DNA from: Methanosarcina vacuolata Z-761
GTDB taxonomy: Archaea; Halobacteriota; Methanosarcinia; Methanosarcinales; Methanosarcinaceae
Length of the DNA stretch: 64,000 nt
Direction of reading: 5' to 3'
Assembly (NCBI RefSeq): GCF_000969905.1
Contig: NZ_CP009520.1
Coordinates: 2,976,001-3,040,000, forward strand
Position 1 is the stretch's first letter, and the number at the start of each line of letters is the position of its first letter. Below the pieces are notes generated by a model. It was not told where the DNA came from, did not search any database, and saw only the letters and a list, made by a program, of their open reading frames with translations. The position numbers were made by a program, and so were the translations under genes. Below, piece by piece: positions 22,112-54,565 of this stretch.

Positions 22112-22350
22112 CAAATTCGATTACACGTTCGGAATAATTTTTGGAACGTTAAATTCACAAAACATCGCTTTCTGTTTTTTACCCCACATTTTTCGGCTAT
22201 TCTACACTATCGATTAAAATCGAAAGTTATTTAGATGACAATTACTTCTATTTTTTGAATCAGTTTTCATTTTATGCATATATTATCAGGAATTGCGGTT
22301 TCAAAGAATTATTGAACTTTTGATTGTTTTTCTTTAGGCAGGGACTTCAG

Positions 22351-25011
22351 ATGGAACTGAATGAAATCAAAGATCTGATTTTAAAAGCTAAAGAAAGTAA
22401 CGCGACTACACTAGACCTTTCATCCAAAAGACTGATTTTGCTGCCTCCGGAAATCGCAGAACTCAAAAATCTTACTACACTTGACATATCAGGAAATCAA
22501 TTGACTTCTATGCCTCCGGAAATCGCAGAACTCAAAAATCTTATTACACTTAACATATTTAGTAATCATTTGACTTCGTTGCCTCCGGAAATCACAGAAC
22601 TCAAAAATCTTATTACACTTAACATATCTTCGAATCGATTAACTTCACTGCCGTCGGAAATTGCAGAGTTGAAAAATCTTACGACACTTAACATATCTAG
22701 TAATGAATTAACTTCACTGCCGTCGGAAATCACAGAACTGAAAAATCTTACTATACTTAACATATCTTCAAATCAATTAACTTCACTGCCACTGGGAATC
22801 GCAGAGTTGAAAAATCTTAATACACTAGATATATCTTGGAATCAATTGATTTCGCTACCTCTTGGAATCGCAGAGTTGAAAAATCTTATCACACTTAACA
22901 TGGCTTGGAATCAATTGACTTCGCTGCCGCCGGGAATCACAAAGTTGAAAAATCTTACTACACTTTACATGTTTTGGAATCAATTGACTTCGTTGCCTCC
23001 GGAAATCACAGAACTGAAAAATCTTATTAAACTTGATATATCTCGTAATGAATTGACTTCGTTGCCTCCGGAAATCACAGAACTGAAAAATCTTACTAGA
23101 CTTGACATATCTCGTAATAAATTGACTTCGTTGCCTCCGGAAATCACAGAACTGAAAAATCTTACTACACTTATCCTCTCTGATAATCAATTGACTTCGC
23201 TGCCGCCAGAAATTTTAGAATTAGGTATAGATATTGAGTGGGAAAGTAATTCGGCAGAAAAAGGAATATTCTTAGAAGGAAATCCTCTTGAAAATCCTCC
23301 AATAGAGATTGTAAAACAGGGTCGTGAAGCAGTTATCAATTATTTCAAGTCATTGGAAGGTGAAAAGAAACCGTTAAATGAAGTTAAAGTTTTGCTTGTA
23401 GGAGATGGAGAGGCAGGAAAAACCTCACTGTTAAAGAGGCTCTTAGGCGAAGGTTTTGATGGAAATGAGCATCAGACTCAAGGAATTAATATCAAAAAAT
23501 GGGGATTTAAAGACAAAAATAAGGAAATAAAAGTTAATTTTTGGGATTTTGGTGGACAGGAAATAATGCATGCTACTCATCAATTTTTCCTTTCCAAAAG
23601 AAGCCTTTATATTCTTGTTCTGGATTCTAGAAGGGATGAAAAAGCCGAGTATTGGCTCAAGCACATAAAGAGTTTTGGAGGAGATTCTCCAGTACTGGTC
23701 GCCTTGAACAAGATTGATGAAAATCCCTCTTTTGAGTTGAATAGGAAGTTTTTGCAGGAGAAATACCCCTCAATAAAAGGTTTCTTCAGAATTTCTTGTA
23801 AAGAAGATAGAGGAATTGAAGGATTTTCCCGTAAATTAAAAAAAGAACTTTTGAAAGTTGAACATATGCAGATAGAATGGGCTAAAAGCTGGTTCGAGGT
23901 GAAGACAAAATTAGAAAAAATGAGTTGCAATTTTATTACTTATGAAGAATATCGAAATATATGTCTGGAAGAAAATGTGAGCGATAAGTCATCTCAAAAC
24001 ACGCTTGTTGATTTTCTTAATAATCTTGGAGTAATTGTACATTTTAAAGACATCTCACTGCTCGATACACATGTGCTTGAGCCGAAGTGGATTACTGAAG
24101 GCGTTTATAAGATCATAAATTCGGAGATTCTAGCTAAGAAGAAGGGAGTTCTTCGATTAAGTATGCTAGATGAAATTTTAGAGCAGAAGAAAGAAGGCGA
24201 CTACTATTATCCTCCTGAACGTTATGGTTACATCATCAATTTGATGAAAAAATTCGAATTATGCTATTCAATTGACGAAGAAACTGTGCTCCTTCCTGAC
24301 CTGTTGGCAGTTCCTGAGCCAAATTTTGACTTTGATTCGAATGAATCCCTGAAGTTTTTTATTGAATATGATTTCCTTCCACGCTCAATTATGCCTCGCT
24401 TTATAGTGAAGATGCACAGGGATATAGAAGATGATTTGCAGTGGAGAACAGGTGTAGTTCTCAAAAACAAACAATTTAATTCCTGTGCTGTGATCAGATC
24501 TGATAATGAAGCAAAGAGAATCTATATTAACGTAAATGGAGGTCAGAAACGAGACTATTTTTCAAGCATACTATTCAATTTGCGGGAAATTAACCGGAGT
24601 TTTGAAAAGTTAAAAGCTATCGAAAAAATTCCCCTTCCTGATGAACCCGAGATAGCTGTAAGTTACGAACACTTAGTTAATCTGGAAGAAATGGGCATTG
24701 ATTTATTTGTACCTGAAGGATCAAAAAAGAAATATCGTGTGAGTGATTTGCTCGGAACAGTCAACAACTTGAGTAAACAAGAGGAATTGTTGGAAGAAAT
24801 TCTGAACATTCTGAAGAAGAATAACGAAGACGAAAAACTTGAGGAAATCTTTAAATTTTTAAAGAAAATAGCTGATGAGTCTGATAATGAGGGAACTTTA
24901 GCTAAGAAACTAAATACAGTTATTATGTTGAAACCCAGTGTTGCAGGATGTGGAGTCGATTTCAACGAGGCAATTAACCTTTTTTTCAAAAGAAAAAGGC
25001 AGAAATCCTAA
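22351..25011 (+). CDS. Roco protein: LRR-Roc-COR GTPase
   Basis: About 886 residues. Residues 20-290 hold eleven full 23-residue leucine-rich repeats (LPPEITELKNLTTLDISSNQ type) encoded by a nearly identical 69-bp DNA repeat. The Roc GTPase follows: VLLVGDGEAGKTSLLKRLLG (P-loop), TQGINIKKW (switch I), VNFWDFGGQEIMHATHQFF (G3, switch II), ALNKID (G4). The COR domain runs from about residue 500 to 770 (LEPKWITEGVYKIIN). A C-terminal coiled segment follows. No kinase domain. Roco proteins are dimeric GTPases related to human LRRK2; archaeal ones are known from Methanosarcina. Start: ATG at 22351 behind GGCAGGGA; an upstream TTG frame is less likely. Stands alone; partners unknown. Confidence 0.93.
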   Translation: MELNEIKDLILKAKESNATTLDLSSKRLILLPPEIAELKNLTTLDISGNQLTSMPPEIAELKNLITLNIFSNHLTSLPPEITELKNLITLNISSNRLTSLPSEIAELKNLTTLNISSNELTSLPSEITELKNLTILNISSNQLTSLPLGIAELKNLNTLDISWNQLISLPLGIAELKNLITLNMAWNQLTSLPPGITKLKNLTTLYMFWNQLTSLPPEITELKNLIKLDISRNELTSLPPEITELKNLTRLDISRNKLTSLPPEITELKNLTTLILSDNQLTSLPPEILELGIDIEWESNSAEKGIFLEGNPLENPPIEIVKQGREAVINYFKSLEGEKKPLNEVKVLLVGDGEAGKTSLLKRLLGEGFDGNEHQTQGINIKKWGFKDKNKEIKVNFWDFGGQEIMHATHQFFLSKRSLYILVLDSRRDEKAEYWLKHIKSFGGDSPVLVALNKIDENPSFELNRKFLQEKYPSIKGFFRISCKEDRGIEGFSRKLKKELLKVEHMQIEWAKSWFEVKTKLEKMSCNFITYEEYRNICLEENVSDKSSQNTLVDFLNNLGVIVHFKDISLLDTHVLEPKWITEGVYKIINSEILAKKKGVLRLSMLDEILEQKKEGDYYYPPERYGYIINLMKKFELCYSIDEETVLLPDLLAVPEPNFDFDSNESLKFFIEYDFLPRSIMPRFIVKMHRDIEDDLQWRTGVVLKNKQFNSCAVIRSDNEAKRIYINVNGGQKRDYFSSILFNLREINRSFEKLKAIEKIPLPDEPEIAVSYEHLVNLEEMGIDLFVPEGSKKKYRVSDLLGTVNNLSKQEELLEEILNILKKNNEDEKLEEIFKFLKKIADESDNEGTLAKKLNTVIMLKPSVAGCGVDFNEAINLFFKRKRQKS

Positions 25012-46879: not shown

Positions 46880-47140
46880 CCCTCCGAAATAAGGGCATAA
46901 TATAAATTTCCCACTGTTCGGGTTTACAATATATTTAGAGCCTATCCACAGTGTTTTTATTCACTTATCTTTTTTGAAGAATATGAAAAGAGGGTTGATA
47001 GCCGGTGACGATGAGAACCGTTTTTTGGAACGGGGGTGGTGGTGTATATACTTGGGTTGGTTAATACAGTTATGAGAATATGTTCCCGTTCCTGGATATA
47101 ATAAGTAGTAGCATCTACTTAAATAATACTGAGAAAAATA
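46880..47140. other. Gap with IS-end-like motif
   Basis: gagcctatccacagtgtttt at about 46938 again matches the IS-end motif. A minus-strand frame here lacks a ribosome site and is rejected. Confidence 0.35.
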
Positions 47141-47171
47141 ATAGCACTGATACAATAATTGTGTGAATTTT
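47141..47171. repeat. 31-bp direct repeat, copy 1
   Basis: atagcactgatacaataatt followed by gtgtgaatttt is repeated without change at 48928-48958. The two copies flank 1.76 kb that holds gene relics and an RNA candidate. Confidence 0.88.
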
Positions 47172-47184
47172 ACTAATTAATGAA

Positions 47185-47352
47185 TTGGAATCACCTATCT
47201 GTGGCTCAAAGTGTAAATATAGTTCGGTGATAGAAGAAGCAAAAAATACTCGTAATCTGGATGATGAACAGGTTTTTAACCTGCTCGCCGATGTTTGCAG
47301 AAATTCAGATGCTCACTACGAAAGCGCCATTGGATTAGTACTAAAGAGTTAA
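47185..47352 (+). CDS. Possible small protein or gene remnant
   Basis: 55 codons from TTG 47185: MESPICGSKCKYSSVIEEAK, NTRNLDDEQVFNLLADVCRN, SDAHYESAIGLVLKS. The composition is convincing protein, but no ribosome site is seen before the TTG, so the true N-terminus may have been lost. No family recognised. Confidence 0.35.
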   Translation: MESPICGSKCKYSSVIEEAKNTRNLDDEQVFNLLADVCRNSDAHYESAIGLVLKS

Positions 47353-47437
47353 TTTTTTTACTGAGTTTAATCTTAGTGACTTTACTGGTTCTACAAACTT
47401 ATTCTAAAATTCTACTCAAAAAACAAGATATAAGTAA

Positions 47438-47534
47438 GCGGGGAAGAGAAACCCCGCCAACGGGTTTGTGAGGGGCAGGGAAAGAATAAGACCTGCCCCT
47501 TATGATTACAGACCAAACCTAGGAAATAGGTCTG
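47438..47534 (+). ncRNA. Three-hairpin structured RNA candidate
   Basis: Three consecutive perfect stems: GCGGGG (47438-47443) with CCCCGC (47452-47457); AGGGGCAGG (47471-47479) with CCTGCCCCT (47492-47500); CAGACC (47509-47514) with GGTCTG (47529-47534). GC-rich stems in an AT-rich gap without a gene suggest selected RNA structure, either a small RNA or a leader. The strand is not decided by the sequence. A related aataggtttgcatata stretch recurs at about 48559. Confidence 0.5.
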
Positions 47535-47618
47535 CATATGAATATCAGTGTTAAAAATATTTAAGTGTTTTCGTGGTGTTTATTTTAGATTCTCAATGTC
47601 TGTGCATGTCACAGAACC

Positions 47619-47907
47619 TCAGCAATTCCAGTCATTTACCACGTCAGCAAGCATAAATACAATAAACTCTTCAAATTCCTTTGGAATAAGAATGAAGCTG
47701 AGATCACTGAACTGTAATAACTTATTACGCAATTGTTGATTTGCTATTTTGATCTTGTGAGCTGCAGACGAGAGCAATCTGCAGCTCATAAGGAGATCTG
47801 TCTGGAAGTACAAGTGCATCGATTGAGAAAGAGGTTACTCCGAGACGAAGCTTTTTTGTTGAAAATAAGAGTTGTATGGATCCTGGGTATTTTTTGAATC
47901 GAATCAC
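47619..47907 (-). pseudogene. Frameshifted small gene of unknown function
   Basis: GTG at 47905-47907 is preceded by GGAGG-TACAAA, an ideal ribosome site, and a TATA-like tttattatatag lies about 40 bp further up. The first frame gives MIRFKKYPGSIQLLFSTKKL, RLGVTSFSIDALVLPDRSPY, ELQIALVCSS and ends at 47725. A neighbouring frame continues HKIKIANQQLRNKLLQFSDL, SFILIPKEFEEFIVFMLADV to 47619. Together they would make about 98 residues. Either a single frameshift killed the gene or only the 60-residue product is made. No family recognised. Confidence 0.5.
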
Positions 47908-48079
47908 TTTGTACCTCCAAAATATAAATAAACCAAATTTATTATATAGTTTTTGGATATATTCTATATATTTTGAGTTTTGCTATTTAGCTTTATTTTC
48001 TTAGGGGTGATTGGCAAGGGATGAGACGTACCAGCTACCCTAAGCCTTCCTAATAAAATTATGTTTCTCAACCTGTTTT

Positions 48080-48125
48080 TTACTGGCGAGAGAATCTGAG
48101 GAATAGAAGAACAAGTGCCGAAAAT
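48080..48125 (-). pseudogene. Relic of a sarcinarray gene 3' end
   Basis: Read on the minus strand it encodes FSALVLLFLRFSRQ and a stop, almost identical to the end of the intact sarcinarray protein (ISALVLVFLRLSRQ). About 42 of 47 bases match. The rest of the gene is not recognisable upstream. Confidence 0.7.
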
Positions 48126-48927
48126 TTTATTAGAGTTTTCGTCGAGAGTTACCTTAAGCTTGTTACTCCGTAGTCACGGAATAATGAATCAAAAGAAGTG
48201 ATAATTGAGGGGGTAAGGGGGGTTTAGCATACTGCAAGCCAAAATATTTTCCGTGGTTCGTTTACGCCTCTCGAGCGCCCTTTCCTCTTTTTAAAGTTTA
48301 GCTTACATGTGTCTTTTTAGTTGAGAAAAGGGACTTTGCTTCCTCTCTTTGTGAAATTAAAAAACAAAGATTTTTATTCCGTATGAGTGTGGCAATTGTT
48401 TATCTGTTGGATATAAATCCGTTTACTATGAATTGCCAATAGAATACTTTCACTATGAATTGGTTAACTTTATGTGCATCGATACTTATTATACGTTATC
48501 TCTGAAAAGAGAAAGTATTGTCCGAGGATGCATCGTGAGTGCGTTCCTCGAAACAAATAGGTTTGCATATACATTGGAGACTATATGAAATATATACGCA
48601 TAAATTCTAATGGTGTCTTTGGATTTGAAGTTTCTGATCGAACATTGTTTATGGTTTTTTTGTTATTTCTGGAGATCTTTCTTCAGTTTTAATGTTTGTG
48701 GCAGTAGTACTGCTTTTTTCTTCTTTTTATCTGTGTCCCTTTCCTATCCTTTAAGAGTATTCGTGGTAAGAGTCTCATGCCTACAAAAAGCCTTCATGTG
48801 CATAACTTCATACAGGTAATTTACGTCCAAGTCACGTAAATTTCATATACTTCAAAAAGGTGACAGAGTGGGGTTTCATCCTATAAAGAACAAAAATACT
48901 AACACATCTTATTGTAAGAATGTAAAA
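48126..48927. other. Decayed intergenic DNA
   Basis: No credible gene. Small hairpins occur: TCCGT-AGTC-ACGGA (about 48168) and CGAGGA/TCCTCG (about 48521-48549). A plus-strand hydrophobic frame at 48610-48819 lacks a ribosome site. Confidence 0.4.
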
Positions 48928-48958
48928 ATAGCACTGATACAATAATTGTGTGAATTTT
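48928..48958. repeat. 31-bp direct repeat, copy 2
   Basis: Identical to 47141-47171. It lies 7 bp before the left end of the MITE-like element. Confidence 0.88.
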
Positions 48959-48965
48959 GCTCATA

Positions 48966-49094
48966 GAGCCTATCCTGAAACTCAAAATTTGATTTTTGAG
49001 TTTCGTATTTGGAACAGTCAGTTGAATACCTAATCATTAACTGATCCTGAAACCTCATGATGATTTAGAACAAAATCGGTTTTGGGATAGGCTC
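48966..49094. mobile_element. 129-bp MITE-like element
   Basis: Terminal inverted repeats GAGCCTATCC (48966-48975) and GGATAGGCTC (49085-49094) enclose 109 bp with internal partial palindromes (ctcaaaatttgatttttgag). It interrupts a copy of the giant-protein gene exactly where the homology stops, at 49095. The same end motif occurs singly at 43543 and 46938. Too short to encode a transposase. Confidence 0.65.
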
Positions 49095-49500
49095 ATTATT
49101 AAGAACGATTGCATCATCTTTTCTCACATATTTCTGACCTTTGTGACCAAAATAAGGTTCAGGAATCGCTTCATTGTCGTTATCAATGGCCGTAAAAATT
49201 TCATATTCTCCTTTTACTTCATAAGTCCACACATTAACCGTAAAAATCCAGTGTGGCGGCAATACCGGCAACCCATATGGAACAGAGGCCATCGTCCCAT
49301 CCAGTTTTTTTGAAATTTTGTCTCCGATTTCACCGGAATATCTATCAGCAGTTTCATTTGCCAGATTTTTCAGCTCGCTATCAATTTTTCCAAAACCGGC
49401 ATCAATAACTTCGCCTTTGTTTACTGTAAATGCGCAGATCCCATCTGCAACTCCGATTTTGATGTCGGTAACTCCTCTATATAGAATAGCTTCAAGTTCA
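49095..49500 (-). pseudogene. Duplicated 3' fragment of the giant surface-protein gene
   Basis: Encodes 135 residues closely matching the C-terminal part of the protein at 50131-54294: IKIGVADGICAFTVNKGEVI, DRYSGEIGDKISKKLDGTMA, LPVLPPHWIFTVNVWTYEV, EPYFGHKGQKYVRKDDAIVL. It starts abruptly one base after the sarcinarray stop and is cut off by the MITE-like element, so the last 50 or so residues are lost. No start site of its own. Confidence 0.85.
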
Positions 49501-49501
49501 T

Positions 49502-50128
49502 TTACTGTCGAGATAATCTGAGGAATACAAGCACAAGTGCCGAAATCGCAGTTACTAACTTAAAAGCTGGTGCAGATGCTGATGAAGGTGAATTTTCTGA
49601 AGCTGGCTTTTTTGAAGTGGGTTGATTTTCGGACTCAGATTGCTCAGAAGTAGGAGTTTCGCCTTCGTAGTGTCCGTTGGAGATTGTGCAGTAGGCGATG
49701 GTGAATTCTCCTTTTATAGCAGGTTCATCTTCTCCAGGAAGGTTAATCTGATACCAAAAGTTTAATGGAATAGAACCTCCAGCCCATTCATCTGTAGGTA
49801 CAATCGTCCATTCAAAAGTATATTTGCCAGGATCTAAAGACTTAATGTATTTTGTTTTTTCAAATTCTGATGGACCATCCACAACTTCAAAAAAATTTCC
49901 ACCTAAACTGCAAACTTGCACAAACAAAGTACTGGTTTGATTTAATGTCATATCTACTTTTACTTTGAAAGGCTCTCCAATTTTAAGTGTAGGTTTTGCA
50001 ACCTCTTTTCCAGGTAGTATTTTATCATTATAATAAACATCAATCGAGCCATATTGACTACTTGCAGATGCATTTCCCACCAACAGTAATAAAATAAATC
50101 CAAACCATATAACAGATTTTAAATTCAC
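49502..50128 (-). CDS. Sarcinarray-family secreted protein
   Basis: 208 residues. Signal peptide MNLKSVIWFGFILLLLVGNA; mature part SIDVYYNDKILPGKEVAKPT, LKIGEPFKVKVDMTLNQTST, FFEVVDGPSEFEKTKYIKSL, EWTIVPTDEWAGGSIPLNFW; then a Ser/Thr/Glu/Pro-rich spacer (from GHYEGETPTSEQSESENQPT) and a C-terminal hydrophobic segment PAFKLVTAISALVLVFLRLS plus RQ. This matches the sarcinarray family known from Methanosarcina, which occurs in tandem arrays and is surface-attached. It starts 2 bases after the giant gene stops, so the two are co-translated. Function unknown. Confidence 0.82.
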   Translation of the reverse strand: MNLKSVIWFGFILLLLVGNASASSQYGSIDVYYNDKILPGKEVAKPTLKIGEPFKVKVDMTLNQTSTLFVQVCSLGGNFFEVVDGPSEFEKTKYIKSLDPGKYTFEWTIVPTDEWAGGSIPLNFWYQINLPGEDEPAIKGEFTIAYCTISNGHYEGETPTSEQSESENQPTSKKPASENSPSSASAPAFKLVTAISALVLVFLRLSRQ

Positions 50129-50130
50129 AA

Positions 50131-53100
50131 TTAACCACCATTTTCGAGTAATAGAGCTTGATAACCCGTGGACTCTTCTGTCATACCTTTCACTTTGTCT
50201 CCTACACCTTTGGGACCAGGACCAACGATTGTTGAAGCGTAACCGTTGAACCTAAAAGTAATTGGCTTATTTTCACCGAGATAATTTTCGTTAAGAGTAA
50301 TCGATTGCTTTTCTCTAACGTACTTCTGCCCTTTATGCCCAAAATAAGGTTCAGGAATCACTTCATTATCGTTATCAATAACAGTAAATACCTGATATTT
50401 TCCCACAATTTCATAAGTCCACACATTAACCGTAAAAATCCAGTGTGGCGGCAATACCGGCAACCCACATGGAACAGATGCCATCGTCCCATCCAGTTTT
50501 TTTGAAATTTTGTCTCCGATTTCACCGGAATATCTATCAGCAGTTTCATTTGCCAGATTTTTCAGCTCGTTATCGATTTTCCCGAAACCAGTGTCGATAA
50601 CCTCACCTTTGTTTACTGTAACTGCGCAGATCCCATCTGCAACTCCGATTTTAATATCGGTGTCTACTCTGTTCAGAATAGCTTCAAGTTCATCAGGTTC
50701 AACAGGCGGGTTTGAATCTCGAATTTCCGTTTTCATTATAAAAGCAAGTTCAACTGCCAGTTCATCCGTTGTAGATTTTTTGAGAATTTCATTGTCCGAA
50801 AGCCCGTTAAGGTAAGTTGTCGTGACTTCCCTGATTCGACTATCCTCTATGCAGTCGGAAATAACAGGGTTTGAACTAACCTCTTGAACTACATTTTCAA
50901 GAATTTGAGACCTCATTTCCTGCGCATACATGTGTTTCAGGTTATAAACTTCCGTGTCAAGACGAGTTGTATCCAGCGAAATATTCTGCTCGCTGAGGTT
51001 CTGTTCAAGCAGGAAAACTTCTGCGTTCAGGTTGGAAATACTCTGGCTGATCTGCTGTGCCATTTCAGTTTTTACGTACTCATCGCTTGAGGCAATAATA
51101 TCTCCAATTTCCTCGGAAATGCCGGTTGTGAAAACGCAGGTATTCCGGACACCCAGGGGGTAAATCGTTTTTCCGCTCATTGTGTCAGTCCATTCGTATT
51201 CCTTCCTCAGGTCAAAATCAGGGTCATGGTATAGATAGTTCGGTTTCTGGTCAACGATCAGGGTCAGATTTTCTGTCCAGTTGTATTTGCTTTCCGGCTG
51301 GCCGGTGACGGTCATTGTCGAGATTATACCCATGTCCTTCCCCAGAACCGAAGCAGCCTTCTCGATTGCAGGATTATTAAAAAGGGTCATAGGACCTGAG
51401 GTCACGCTGTCAAGCAGACCGGTATCAAGGCCTTTTTTCTCAAGGGCTTTGAGGATATAGGAGTTGAGGTCAGAATCCAGTTTACGGTTTTTCTGGTCGA
51501 TATCCTCAAGCAGCTTGCTGTACGCTTCACTTTTTGCAATGTACCTGGCCGAGTCACTTGAAGCGTACATTGTTCCTGACGGCGTTAGGTACTGTTCTTT
51601 ATTTACGTAAGCGTCCCGGTCTTTTTCCAGTTCCACAACAAGTTTTTCCGCAGTTTCTACCTGAAGGGCTGTTGGGTCCTGGCCGGGAGAATCAAGAAGA
51701 GAATAATTGAAGGATGGATTGTCCTTTTCCACCGAATCCAGCATTGAAAGTACTTCTTCTGCCATAATTCGGTGTAACCATGATGGGATATCGCAATTAA
51801 CAGCATGTTTGGTTAAATATTTTCCATCAGGATAAGCCCAGAACATGCTTTCTATTTCTCTTAAATCCAGATATGCATCTCTGTATTTGTCGGCAGCATC
51901 GGAACAGCATGGGTCAAACCTTTCGGTTTTAGTTGTACCGTTGTCTGTGCTGTTGTCTATGCTATTTTCTATGCTATTTTCTATGTCGTTATTGCCTGTA
52001 CTGTTCAAATAGAGGGTTGTTTCCCGGTATTCCCGCTCGATAGGGTCAGAATAAGTCAACAAACCGGAATAGCCGCCCGCTGGAGGACATTTGTGGTAAA
52101 TTATTGTTAGGTTTTCAGCTTCGGTTTCGGCATGAGAAAGGGATACGATATTGATTTTGCTTGCAGTTTGGGAATCCGAGCCACTTGACGTATCAGAATG
52201 CGTCACAGTTGTGTAGTTTCCATCAGGCAACTGTTCCCTGGTTTTCCATCTGTAGGTATAATCGTAAGCATAGTCTATTTTCCAATTTGTCCTTATTTTG
52301 TAGGATATATCGTACCTTATTCTCCAGTCAAAAACGTGATATTCCCTATCCAGGTAGCCTTCGCTTCGGTTTTCGACCATAAGAGTATCGTTACTTACGT
52401 AGGAGAAATGAGGTTCAATCTTCACATCGGTTATATCAACCGAGTTCAGGCTGACAGATGCCGATGTGACCGACCAGCTGGTTACATCTCCTTCAGGAGG
52501 GTCAATTGAAGGGTTTAAGGATTCGGAGTAAGAAACTTGGATTGGATAATTCCAGGAATAAGACGGCACAAGAGACCCCCTGTGCGTTCCGGATGCATAA
52601 TATCTCGAATACCACCTGACGGTTTGCCCGCTGAACGAAACTGATTCCGGGTCAAAATTTGCAGTGATTAGAGAGCTCATCGGGTCTGGAGAATCAAAGC
52701 CATCTCTCAGGACCTGTCCCTGGACTGATGCGGTATAAACGCTGTCCGTGACCGAATGGATGAGGTCAGGATTTTTCTCTGTCCACACATGATCGTTGAA
52801 GACCCAGCCGTCAAGAACCCCATCAGTATAATCGGATGCTGAAAGTTCGATTTTTGAACTTTTGGAGAGGTCTTCAAAAGAAGTGTTTGTCGCTTTAAGG
52901 GATTCATCTATACTTTTTTCAATATCCAGAGAGAAGGATTTATTCTGGGCAAGCGAATCGTAAGTCGTTGTCAGGTTTACACCTTTATCCATTTCGTAAG
53001 CCGAAACTGAGTTGTTAAGACTGGTAGAGTTCAAGCTGGAATTCAAGCTTAAACCTTTATTCTCTCTTCTGGAATTGAAAATGTCTTCGTAGAGGACTTT

Positions 53101-54294
53101 TCCATTATAGTAGCTTGTGTAGGTAAGAGCCAGAGGGTCAACCGAATCAAAAATTCTCTTCTGGGTATAAAGTGTAGCCCCATTGATTGAACTTGAAAGT
53201 GCAGGATTGGTCAGGATATTCAGAGGGCCGTTTGCATAATGCTGCCAGGGGCCATAGATAAAAGTCCTCAGGTTTGTTGCTCCCAGCACTAAATTTGATG
53301 TCGAGTCAAGCCTCGAAGAGTTTCCAAGCTCGGTTTCGTACTCCCGGACAAGTTCTTCGAGAAGAGGTTCCCTTGACGTGATCAGTGTGGAAAGCTTCAT
53401 ACTACTATTGAAACTTTCTCCGGATTCAAGGTTAACAAGAGTATAGTTCAGGGCAGGAATTTCAAAAACATAATAAATAGTGTAATTTTTGTCAGTAGGT
53501 GAGATTTCACGCTGCAGACTTCCGGTTACTTTTCTTATTCTTATCTGTTCGGGTTCTATATCAGGTTCCACATTAATTGCATATTCCCTGAAAGTGTGGC
53601 TGTTTCCCTGGTAGTTTGTAGAAAGCAGCGTGTTAAAAGCGTCTGCTGTGATATCTTTTACAGGGCTTACTTCAATCACGAACCAGTCAGAGGCTTTGAG
53701 TTCATCCCCGTAATAAAGTTCAATTGAAGCGTATCCCGAGGTTGCGGAATCCGGAATTTTTACGGCTTCCTCAAGTGAGACCTTCTGGAAAAAACCGGTT
53801 GCCTGGCCGTAGTTCACAGTCTTGATTTCGCGGCCTGAAGAGTCGTTGACAATCAGCAGAATATCCCGGTTTTTCCAGAGGGATTCGATCTTGCCCCAGA
53901 TATCGGAAGGCAGATTTATAGAAATCTGAAGTGTATCCTCTCTTTCGAGGTTCTGGTTTTTTGGGATTACCATAAAACCGTCTTCCGAAAGCCTGCTAAC
54001 AGCATCGCCTTCAGGCAGGATTACAGGGTGTTCTCCCTGCCATTCAAGGGCTTCCATTCCTGCATAATTGAGGCAGCGAGCAAGGTCGAACGAGGCGAGG
54101 TTGATGGCATCCTGCCTGGGATCACTATTCTCGGTCGTATAAATGGTTTCAGCTACTTTGCTATCTATTTTTAAAAGATATGTTGAAGTAAAGGTTGCAG
54201 CAAGCAAAATGAAAATTCCAATCACTGCATAGGGTATATAGGCACTGCTATCTTCAATGAAAGATGAAAAATCGTTAGAGGACTTCCCGACCAT
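50131..54294 (-). CDS. Giant membrane-anchored surface protein
   Basis: About 1387 residues. A pilin-like N-terminal helix (YIPYAVIGIFILLAATFTST) follows a short cytoplasmic stretch; the rest is predicted to be outside, with many N-x-S/T sites and Ser/Asn-rich parts, a Tyr-rich beta region (residues 540-690), a helical/coiled region (about 800-960) and a conserved end (LPVLPPHWIFTVNVWTYEIV, EPYFGHKGQKYVREKQSITL, NGYASTIVGPGPKGVGDKVK). No C-terminal anchor. Resembles the uncharacterised large proteins linked to archaeal type IV pilus loci, but no pilus ATPase is near. The start is uncertain: ATG 54294 has GGAG 9 bases upstream; ATG 54303 and TTG 54309 are alternatives. Confidence 0.75.
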   Translation of the reverse strand: MVGKSSNDFSSFIEDSSAYIPYAVIGIFILLAATFTSTYLLKIDSKVAETIYTTENSDPRQDAINLASFDLARCLNYAGMEALEWQGEHPVILPEGDAVSRLSEDGFMVIPKNQNLEREDTLQISINLPSDIWGKIESLWKNRDILLIVNDSSGREIKTVNYGQATGFFQKVSLEEAVKIPDSATSGYASIELYYGDELKASDWFVIEVSPVKDITADAFNTLLSTNYQGNSHTFREYAINVEPDIEPEQIRIRKVTGSLQREISPTDKNYTIYYVFEIPALNYTLVNLESGESFNSSMKLSTLITSREPLLEELVREYETELGNSSRLDSTSNLVLGATNLRTFIYGPWQHYANGPLNILTNPALSSSINGATLYTQKRIFDSVDPLALTYTSYYNGKVLYEDIFNSRRENKGLSLNSSLNSTSLNNSVSAYEMDKGVNLTTTYDSLAQNKSFSLDIEKSIDESLKATNTSFEDLSKSSKIELSASDYTDGVLDGWVFNDHVWTEKNPDLIHSVTDSVYTASVQGQVLRDGFDSPDPMSSLITANFDPESVSFSGQTVRWYSRYYASGTHRGSLVPSYSWNYPIQVSYSESLNPSIDPPEGDVTSWSVTSASVSLNSVDITDVKIEPHFSYVSNDTLMVENRSEGYLDREYHVFDWRIRYDISYKIRTNWKIDYAYDYTYRWKTREQLPDGNYTTVTHSDTSSGSDSQTASKINIVSLSHAETEAENLTIIYHKCPPAGGYSGLLTYSDPIEREYRETTLYLNSTGNNDIENSIENSIDNSTDNGTTKTERFDPCCSDAADKYRDAYLDLREIESMFWAYPDGKYLTKHAVNCDIPSWLHRIMAEEVLSMLDSVEKDNPSFNYSLLDSPGQDPTALQVETAEKLVVELEKDRDAYVNKEQYLTPSGTMYASSDSARYIAKSEAYSKLLEDIDQKNRKLDSDLNSYILKALEKKGLDTGLLDSVTSGPMTLFNNPAIEKAASVLGKDMGIISTMTVTGQPESKYNWTENLTLIVDQKPNYLYHDPDFDLRKEYEWTDTMSGKTIYPLGVRNTCVFTTGISEEIGDIIASSDEYVKTEMAQQISQSISNLNAEVFLLEQNLSEQNISLDTTRLDTEVYNLKHMYAQEMRSQILENVVQEVSSNPVISDCIEDSRIREVTTTYLNGLSDNEILKKSTTDELAVELAFIMKTEIRDSNPPVEPDELEAILNRVDTDIKIGVADGICAVTVNKGEVIDTGFGKIDNELKNLANETADRYSGEIGDKISKKLDGTMASVPCGLPVLPPHWIFTVNVWTYEIVGKYQVFTVIDNDNEVIPEPYFGHKGQKYVREKQSITLNENYLGENKPITFRFNGYASTIVGPGPKGVGDKVKGMTEESTGYQALLLENGG

Positions 54295-54514
54295 CAACCC
54301 CATCTCCAAAAACAGGAATGTAATAATAAATCAATTAATAAGCCAACAAAATCTAAAAAATATTAAAGAGTTTACACAATAAATACTTTACTTCTAAGAG
54401 GAAAACACTTTGTCAAGAACAATAAATTGGGCATAACTAAATATGGAAATATACGTAGGAATAAGTTAAAAATATCATAATGAATAAGTAAAAAATATCA
54501 TAATGAATAAGTAA

Positions 54515-54565
54515 AAACTAAAAGCTTTCCGGGATGTTTTCAAGAAGATCAGGGCAAAATCGTAA
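54515..54565 (+). pseudogene. Relic of a methyltransferase gene 3' end
   Basis: Encodes KLKAFRDVFKKIRAKS and a stop, matching the end of the methyltransferase at 56292-56891 (KLAFKDVFRKIRAKP). Only these 17 codons remain. Upstream is a 24-bp duplication (ataatgaataagtaaaaa). It shows that a second methyltransferase copy once stood left of the DUF2278 gene. Confidence 0.65.

Follow-up and report, generated by a model that had tools for sequence, protein, structure and literature searches.

Archaeal self/non-self recognition and surface variation are poorly known. In Dictyostelium, allorecognition involves TgrB1/TgrC1, two adjacent, highly polymorphic surface-protein genes with matching alleles. 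In the T6SS arrays of Vibrio cholerae, an expression-site pair, made up of a gene with a variable C-terminal part and a matching downstream gene, is followed by orphan downstream genes, some of them with the 3′ end of an old effector, and alleles from a single genome do not group with one another (Kirchberger et al. 2017, PMC5361080). Antigenic variation at Borrelia vlsE/vls uses one expression site and an array of partial cassettes for a variable centre. The nearest archaeal case in the literature we searched is VARTIG, reported as confined to Thermococcales: a large surface protein has a C-terminus that is hypervariable via recombination between species, smaller downstream genes are related to that C-terminus, the organisation is PTS-like and the function unknown (Makarova et al. 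2021, PMC8416519). That study also looked for counterparts in other archaea and reports none that is close (PMC8416519).

Here we analyse a 64,000-nucleotide stretch of the Methanosarcina vacuolata Z-761 genome (the window) and the related loci of Methanosarcinaceae. We find that the C-terminal tip of a giant DUF7286 protein and the ectodomain of the adjacently encoded sarcinarray protein are one allele block of ~0.6 kb, which comes in discrete, paired classes. No published description of such a DUF7286/sarcinarray allele system was found in the literature searched, which included few subscription journals and preprints: sarcinarray appeared in one paper, as a table row, and DUF7286 in none, and searches on sarcinarray, DUF7286, archaeal silent cassettes and surface recombination in M. 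mazei returned nothing on this locus.

Results

The locus in the window consists of an intact gene pair followed, in the same direction, by the remains of an extra unit. Its features are:

50131..54294, minus strand: full-length gene of the DUF7286 giant surface protein (ATG at 54294; 1387 aa)
50314..50697, minus strand: 5′ homology arm within the giant gene, from profile position ~1161 up to GHKGQ.YVR
50134..50313, minus strand: variable tip (allele EKQSITLNENYLGENKPITF...), made up of the giant's 60 C-terminal residues and forming the exchangeable block's 5′ part
49502..50128, minus strand: sarcinarray gene (GTG start at 50128, 2 bp past the stop of the giant)
49688..50053, minus strand: sarcinarray ectodomain, forming the exchangeable block's 3′ part
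49505..49687, minus strand: sarcinarray linker and C-terminal anchor, a lineage-specific tail that acts as 3′ homology arm
49095..49505, minus strand: 5′-truncated DUF7286 C-terminus of the decayed extra unit (arm and first 10 tip codons, KDDAIVLNNE allele)
48966..49094, no strand assigned: MITE (129 bp, 16-bp terminal inverted repeats), interrupting the tip of the extra unit
48079..48123, minus strand: end of a second sarcinarray gene (its final 14 codons plus stop), which is the 3′ arm in the decayed extra unit

The giant protein has an N-terminal membrane segment, a long ectodomain, a helical segment and the C-terminal tip; its C-terminal 380 residues (1004-1383) match DUF7286 (Pfam PF23957, E 1.3e-27) with 97.1 bits against a gathering cut-off of 27. 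The sarcinarray protein, with signal peptide, beta-sandwich, linker and C-terminal membrane helix, matches TIGR04209 over its full length (E 8.6e-59; 197.6 bits against a curated cut-off of 45) and TIGR04204 (MAST domain, E 1.6e-83). In its predicted structure a signal helix is followed by a ~10-strand beta-sandwich, which a disordered linker joins to a C-terminal helix, and a fold search with this model returned only generic Ig-like beta-sandwiches at low TM-scores. The model of the DUF7286 C-terminus is helical before the tip, where pLDDT is mostly below 45.

The first-pass annotation had described this intact pair, a shortened copy of the giant's C-terminal part downstream of it, a MITE-like element and the end of a second sarcinarray gene, and all four are real and lie at the coordinates it gave. 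The shortened copy is a direct repeat of the giant's end (49099-49398 and 50291-50590; 300 nt, 87% identity), and its profile match, 49101-49505, corresponds to DUF7286 positions 1161-1295. The MITE, of which several partial copies lie elsewhere in the genome, cuts the fragment at 49095, so that the last codons of the fragment's open reading frame are MITE sequence. The remnant of the second sarcinarray gene repeats the end of the intact one (48079-48123 and 49501-49545; 45 nt, 91%), and a matching stretch ends array members in relatives. No other DUF7286 or sarcinarray loci were found in the genome of the window, and no Rfam families at 46900-50200. A 41-nt repeat (47137-47177 and 48924-48964, 93%) adjoins the MITE and is matched in relatives, and for the ~790 bp between this repeat and the sarcinarray remnant no relative was detected in the loci searched. 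Just 5′ of the giant gene lie three 23-bp tandem repeats, 74% alike (54447-54515). Further away, at 22324-25011, the window encodes a protein of 895 residues that looks, by eye, like a Roco protein, having leucine-rich repeats and a GTPase-like segment.

We examined 111 Methanosarcinaceae genomes, one per species, so exchange within a population lies outside direct view, and mapped 60 DNA stretches with profiles from 43 full-length giants and their sarcinarrays. A sarcinarray gene lies directly behind the full-length DUF7286 gene in 43/43 aligned cases, with gaps, where measured, of about -7 to +18 bp. Both families occur in 64 of the 111 genomes, sarcinarray alone in seven and DUF7286 alone in two. 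The latter two are partial matches, at a contig edge in G068 and N-terminal only in G054; a full-length DUF7286 gene without a sarcinarray was never seen in the family genomes examined. The proposal that the two genes form a unit thus holds across the family. Sarcinarray was not found in viral contigs or plasmids. In genus g10 (L188-L193; G034, G032, G035, G036, G037 and G031) a single sarcinarray gene occupies a conserved site with no detectable DUF7286, and in one of the six genomes it is split by a stop codon. Another arrangement is seen in G105 (L122:7537-9237, contig C2), where a ~560-residue protein is headed by a sarcinarray ectodomain and goes on with what by eye is fibronectin-, cohesin- and dockerin-like sequence; a short DUF7286-tip-like match precedes it, and a similar long frame lies at G107:C161:1631-2056.

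Outside the family, Thermoplasmata contigs (L175-L183) carry a shorter DUF7286 protein with a sarcinarray-like surface protein encoded directly behind it (E 1e-12 to 1e-17), in one case with a PGF-CTERM motif. There the pair belongs to a four-gene cluster, in which the DUF7286 gene is preceded by genes for two pilin-like proteins, one of them matching DUF7284 weakly. Its presence in Thermoplasmata indicates that the pair is old; at base it probably serves a structural function on the cell surface.

Many loci of the family hold one full-length DUF7286 gene with its sarcinarray, followed by units of a truncated DUF7286 end plus sarcinarray or by lone sarcinarrays, with up to nine sarcinarrays in G079. 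The point of truncation is constant per lineage: profile position ~838 in G005, ~855 in G092, ~895 in G007 and G009, ~1060 in G082 and G084, ~1087 in G081, G083 and G099, and ~1161-1168 in G078, G079, G086 and the window. The stretch that forms the 5′ arm of the window's giant gene is conserved and recurs in the extra units of its clade. Such lineage-fixed truncation points identify the window fragment, which starts at position 1161 directly behind the sarcinarray stop, as one of these units and not the relic of a duplicated gene pair. We also considered the fragment as a plain copy of the window's intact unit and rejected this, as its tip is of another allele class: its first tip residues, KDDAIVLNNE, are identical to those of a unit in G102, and the intact gene has EKQSITLNEN. 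At the DNA level, the match between the fragment and the G102 unit (90% over 188 nt) extends as far as the edge of the MITE. The extra units are modules of DUF7286 arm, tip and sarcinarray with different alleles. Of the earlier suggestion that the whole unit was duplicated and then half lost, the second part stands, in that fragment and remnant make up one decayed extra unit; duplication of the whole unit is not supported.

Aligned DUF7286 C-termini are alike up to DNDNEVIP.PYFGHKGQ.YVR, and the last ~60 residues then split into discrete classes. All classes are homologous to one another, and the GY..TIVGPGPKGVGDK motif is retained in each of them. A tip class that one species has at its expression site can turn up within an extra unit of a different species, even of a different genus. 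The KDDSILHNGK...YIGDN type, for instance, occupies the expression site of G076 and G077, as its variant KDDSIVHNGK does that of G006, and is carried by extra units of G078, G079 and G086. The classes span both genes. Over 44 units, distances of tip and ectodomain were strongly correlated (Mantel r 0.75, p<0.001, and also beyond every within-genome permutation), as were those of arm and tail (r 0.70); values for arm and tip (0.04), tip and tail (0.07) and ectodomain and tail (0.09) were close to zero. Pairs of units with the same tip class had the same ectodomain class in 47 of 49 cases, against 33 of 1226 for pairs with different tip classes. The nearest neighbour came from the same genome in 16/36 cases for the tail, and in 0/36 for tip and ectodomain. 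None of the 49 same-class tip pairs lay within a genome. Avoidance of ectodomain classes within genomes was considered and found no support (6 same-class pairs, 6.9 expected); only the tips show no repeats. The decoupling of the block from the rest of the gene is also seen in genus g11, whose genomes are mostly array-free (tip-ectodomain r 0.78, body-tip r -0.06), and several Methanolobus-type genomes are polymorphic without any array.

Comparison of close relatives reveals how the block is replaced. Between the window and G077 or G079, DNA identity was 0.90-0.97 over the giant gene; it fell to 0.59-0.61 for the tip and 0.52-0.76 for the signal and ectodomain of the sarcinarray, and was 0.81-0.93 in the tail; G078 gave the same pattern of drop in the block. 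G081a and G081b, two loci of a single genome, agree at 98-100% of positions along most of the giant gene and at about 56-69% in the tip and the ectodomain. Identity at fourfold sites fell likewise, from 0.99 to 0.62 and 0.50 in the block for G081a/b, and from 0.86 to 0.54 and 0.48 for the window and G079, with 0.94 again in the tail, which shows replacement of whole alleles and not selection on amino acids. The reverse pattern, with the block more alike than its flanks, was observed for G083 and G081a. AU tests on the block rejected the body clades (window clade, p 5e-75; G081a+b, p 5e-47; genus g5, p 8e-7). A linked pair that diversifies by selection alone, with no recombination, was rejected as an explanation, because synonymous sites diverge in the block too and the AU tests reject the clades. 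In G079, the expression site and the array end carry near-identical sarcinarrays whose flanks are unrelated, the array-end copy having no tip. For the sarcinarray ectodomain of the window, the closest allele is that of a sarcinarray in the G079 array (96% aa, dS 0.06). We conclude, with high confidence, that the block undergoes allele exchange.

The two parts of the extra units are preserved to different degrees: 33/36 array sarcinarrays were intact, against 17/29 DUF7286 ends (Fisher p 0.003). Most of the truncated DUF7286 parts have neither an early start codon nor a signal or membrane segment. Within-class dN/dS was ~0.09 for sarcinarrays, at expression sites and in arrays alike, and 0.11-0.16 for tips. 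The constraint on array sarcinarrays would likewise follow from a mere role as recombination donors. In the spacers of L066 and L067, short stretches past many array sarcinarray stops match the arm of DUF7286 at both its ends, which looks as though most units had lost the inner part of the arm.

Discussion

We propose that the locus encodes a polymorphic two-protein surface module that swaps alleles, and that the match between the two proteins is read in recognition. We regard this statement as a whole as rather probable, and put forward the recognition part by itself as a tentative suggestion. A giant membrane-anchored DUF7286 protein would bear a C-terminal tip of ~60 residues, and the adjacent gene would supply a membrane-anchored sarcinarray whose ectodomain matches that tip. 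Homologous recombination in the DUF7286 arm upstream and in the sarcinarray linker and anchor downstream swaps the block as a unit, among species as well as inside single genomes. Alleles that arrive or are displaced may then pile up downstream as units of truncated DUF7286 end plus sarcinarray, and the window would hold one such unit, cut by the MITE and by further deletion. Tip and sarcinarray presumably touch at the cell surface, where the allele match may be what the system reads, as self/non-self or kin contact. Partner genes that outlive their tips could widen the set of tolerated alleles, as orphan immunity genes do. The polymorphism of several array-free Methanolobus-type genomes counts against this reading. 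Extended to Methanosarcinaceae as allorecognition, with a matching surface pair, two-gene alleles drawn on family-wide and arrays of spare partners that extend tolerance, the proposal is more speculative still.

The alternative that survives best is antigenic (phase) variation, in which silent downstream donors would be gene-converted into the single full-length expression site, as at vlsE/vls or pilE/pilS, so that a lineage alters its surface, most likely to escape viruses. The layout of one full-length gene per locus with 5′-truncated copies, mostly without early start, signal or membrane segment, is what this would produce, as are the conserved arms on both sides of the block, the alleles common to expression sites and arrays, the near-identical sarcinarrays of G079 and the tip classes that never repeat within a genome. 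A donor library should, however, keep both halves of the block, and in the arrays sarcinarrays stay complete while DUF7286 parts decay; the G079 array copy has no tip; and many genomes vary without an array, so donors are unnecessary. We therefore consider pure phase variation unlikely, though not negligible. Recognition is preferred because partner genes stay intact while tips decay, because sarcinarray can stand alone and full-length DUF7286 is never seen without one, and because array-free lineages vary just as much.

It is less probable again that the locus is a polymorphic toxin/immunity system, with the tip as a contact toxin acting on neighbours, sarcinarray as surface immunity and the arrays as orphan immunity genes. 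Such a system would account for the strict allele pairing, for the partner staying when the effector part is lost and for an architecture like that of T6SS/Rhs orphan immunity arrays. However, the tip has only ~60 residues, matched no toxin family in Pfam and TIGR profile searches, and sits in a C-terminal part of DUF7286 whose conservation extends to Thermoplasmata, where a sarcinarray-like gene again follows and two pilin-like genes come before. Since the tips are all homologous and share a motif, nothing points to toxic activity, and a toxin role is possible but unsupported. Simple tandem duplication of the two-gene unit with later loss of half, suggested in the first-pass annotation by the order of the parts and compatible with the 87% arm identity, is extremely improbable, as many extra units share one lineage-specific 5′ breakpoint, the tip of the fragment is of a different class, and the examined loci of relatives, which do include intact extra units, never have two full-length units in tandem.

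If recognition is indeed what the pair serves, the locus possibly lets archaea change or check their surface identity. The analysis defines a family-wide allele pool with exact boundaries, cognate partners and stored alleles, in a family that includes the genetically tractable Methanosarcina, and offers a hypothesis on the role of two named, unstudied families, DUF7286 and sarcinarray.

TgrB1/TgrC1 of Dictyostelium serve as a lead only, being from a eukaryote, with unrelated proteins and no arrays of extra alleles. With Borrelia vlsE/vls the locus has in common one expression site and an array of partial copies; it differs in its two-gene block, its complete array partner genes and its alleles widely common between species. 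With CDI, Rhs and T6SS systems it has in common a constant N-terminus, a variable C-terminus and a cognate downstream gene, as well as orphan downstream modules with truncated effector ends, and, as in the T6SS arrays, alleles that do not group by genome; unlike in T6SS arrays, no toxin or T6SS is known here, the tips are all homologous and both proteins appear to be membrane-anchored. The locus resembles VARTIG as an archaeal locus for a large surface protein with a C-terminus hypervariable by recombination between species, and also in its smaller genes downstream and its PTS-like organisation. VARTIG, however, is an Ig-domain protein (arCOG07710) of Thermococcales, whereas the giant is a DUF7286 protein of Methanosarcinaceae with no significant match to a Pfam Ig family; and, unlike in VARTIG, the partner here varies in step with the tip, the arms of the block are defined and the extra units hold the same gene pair.
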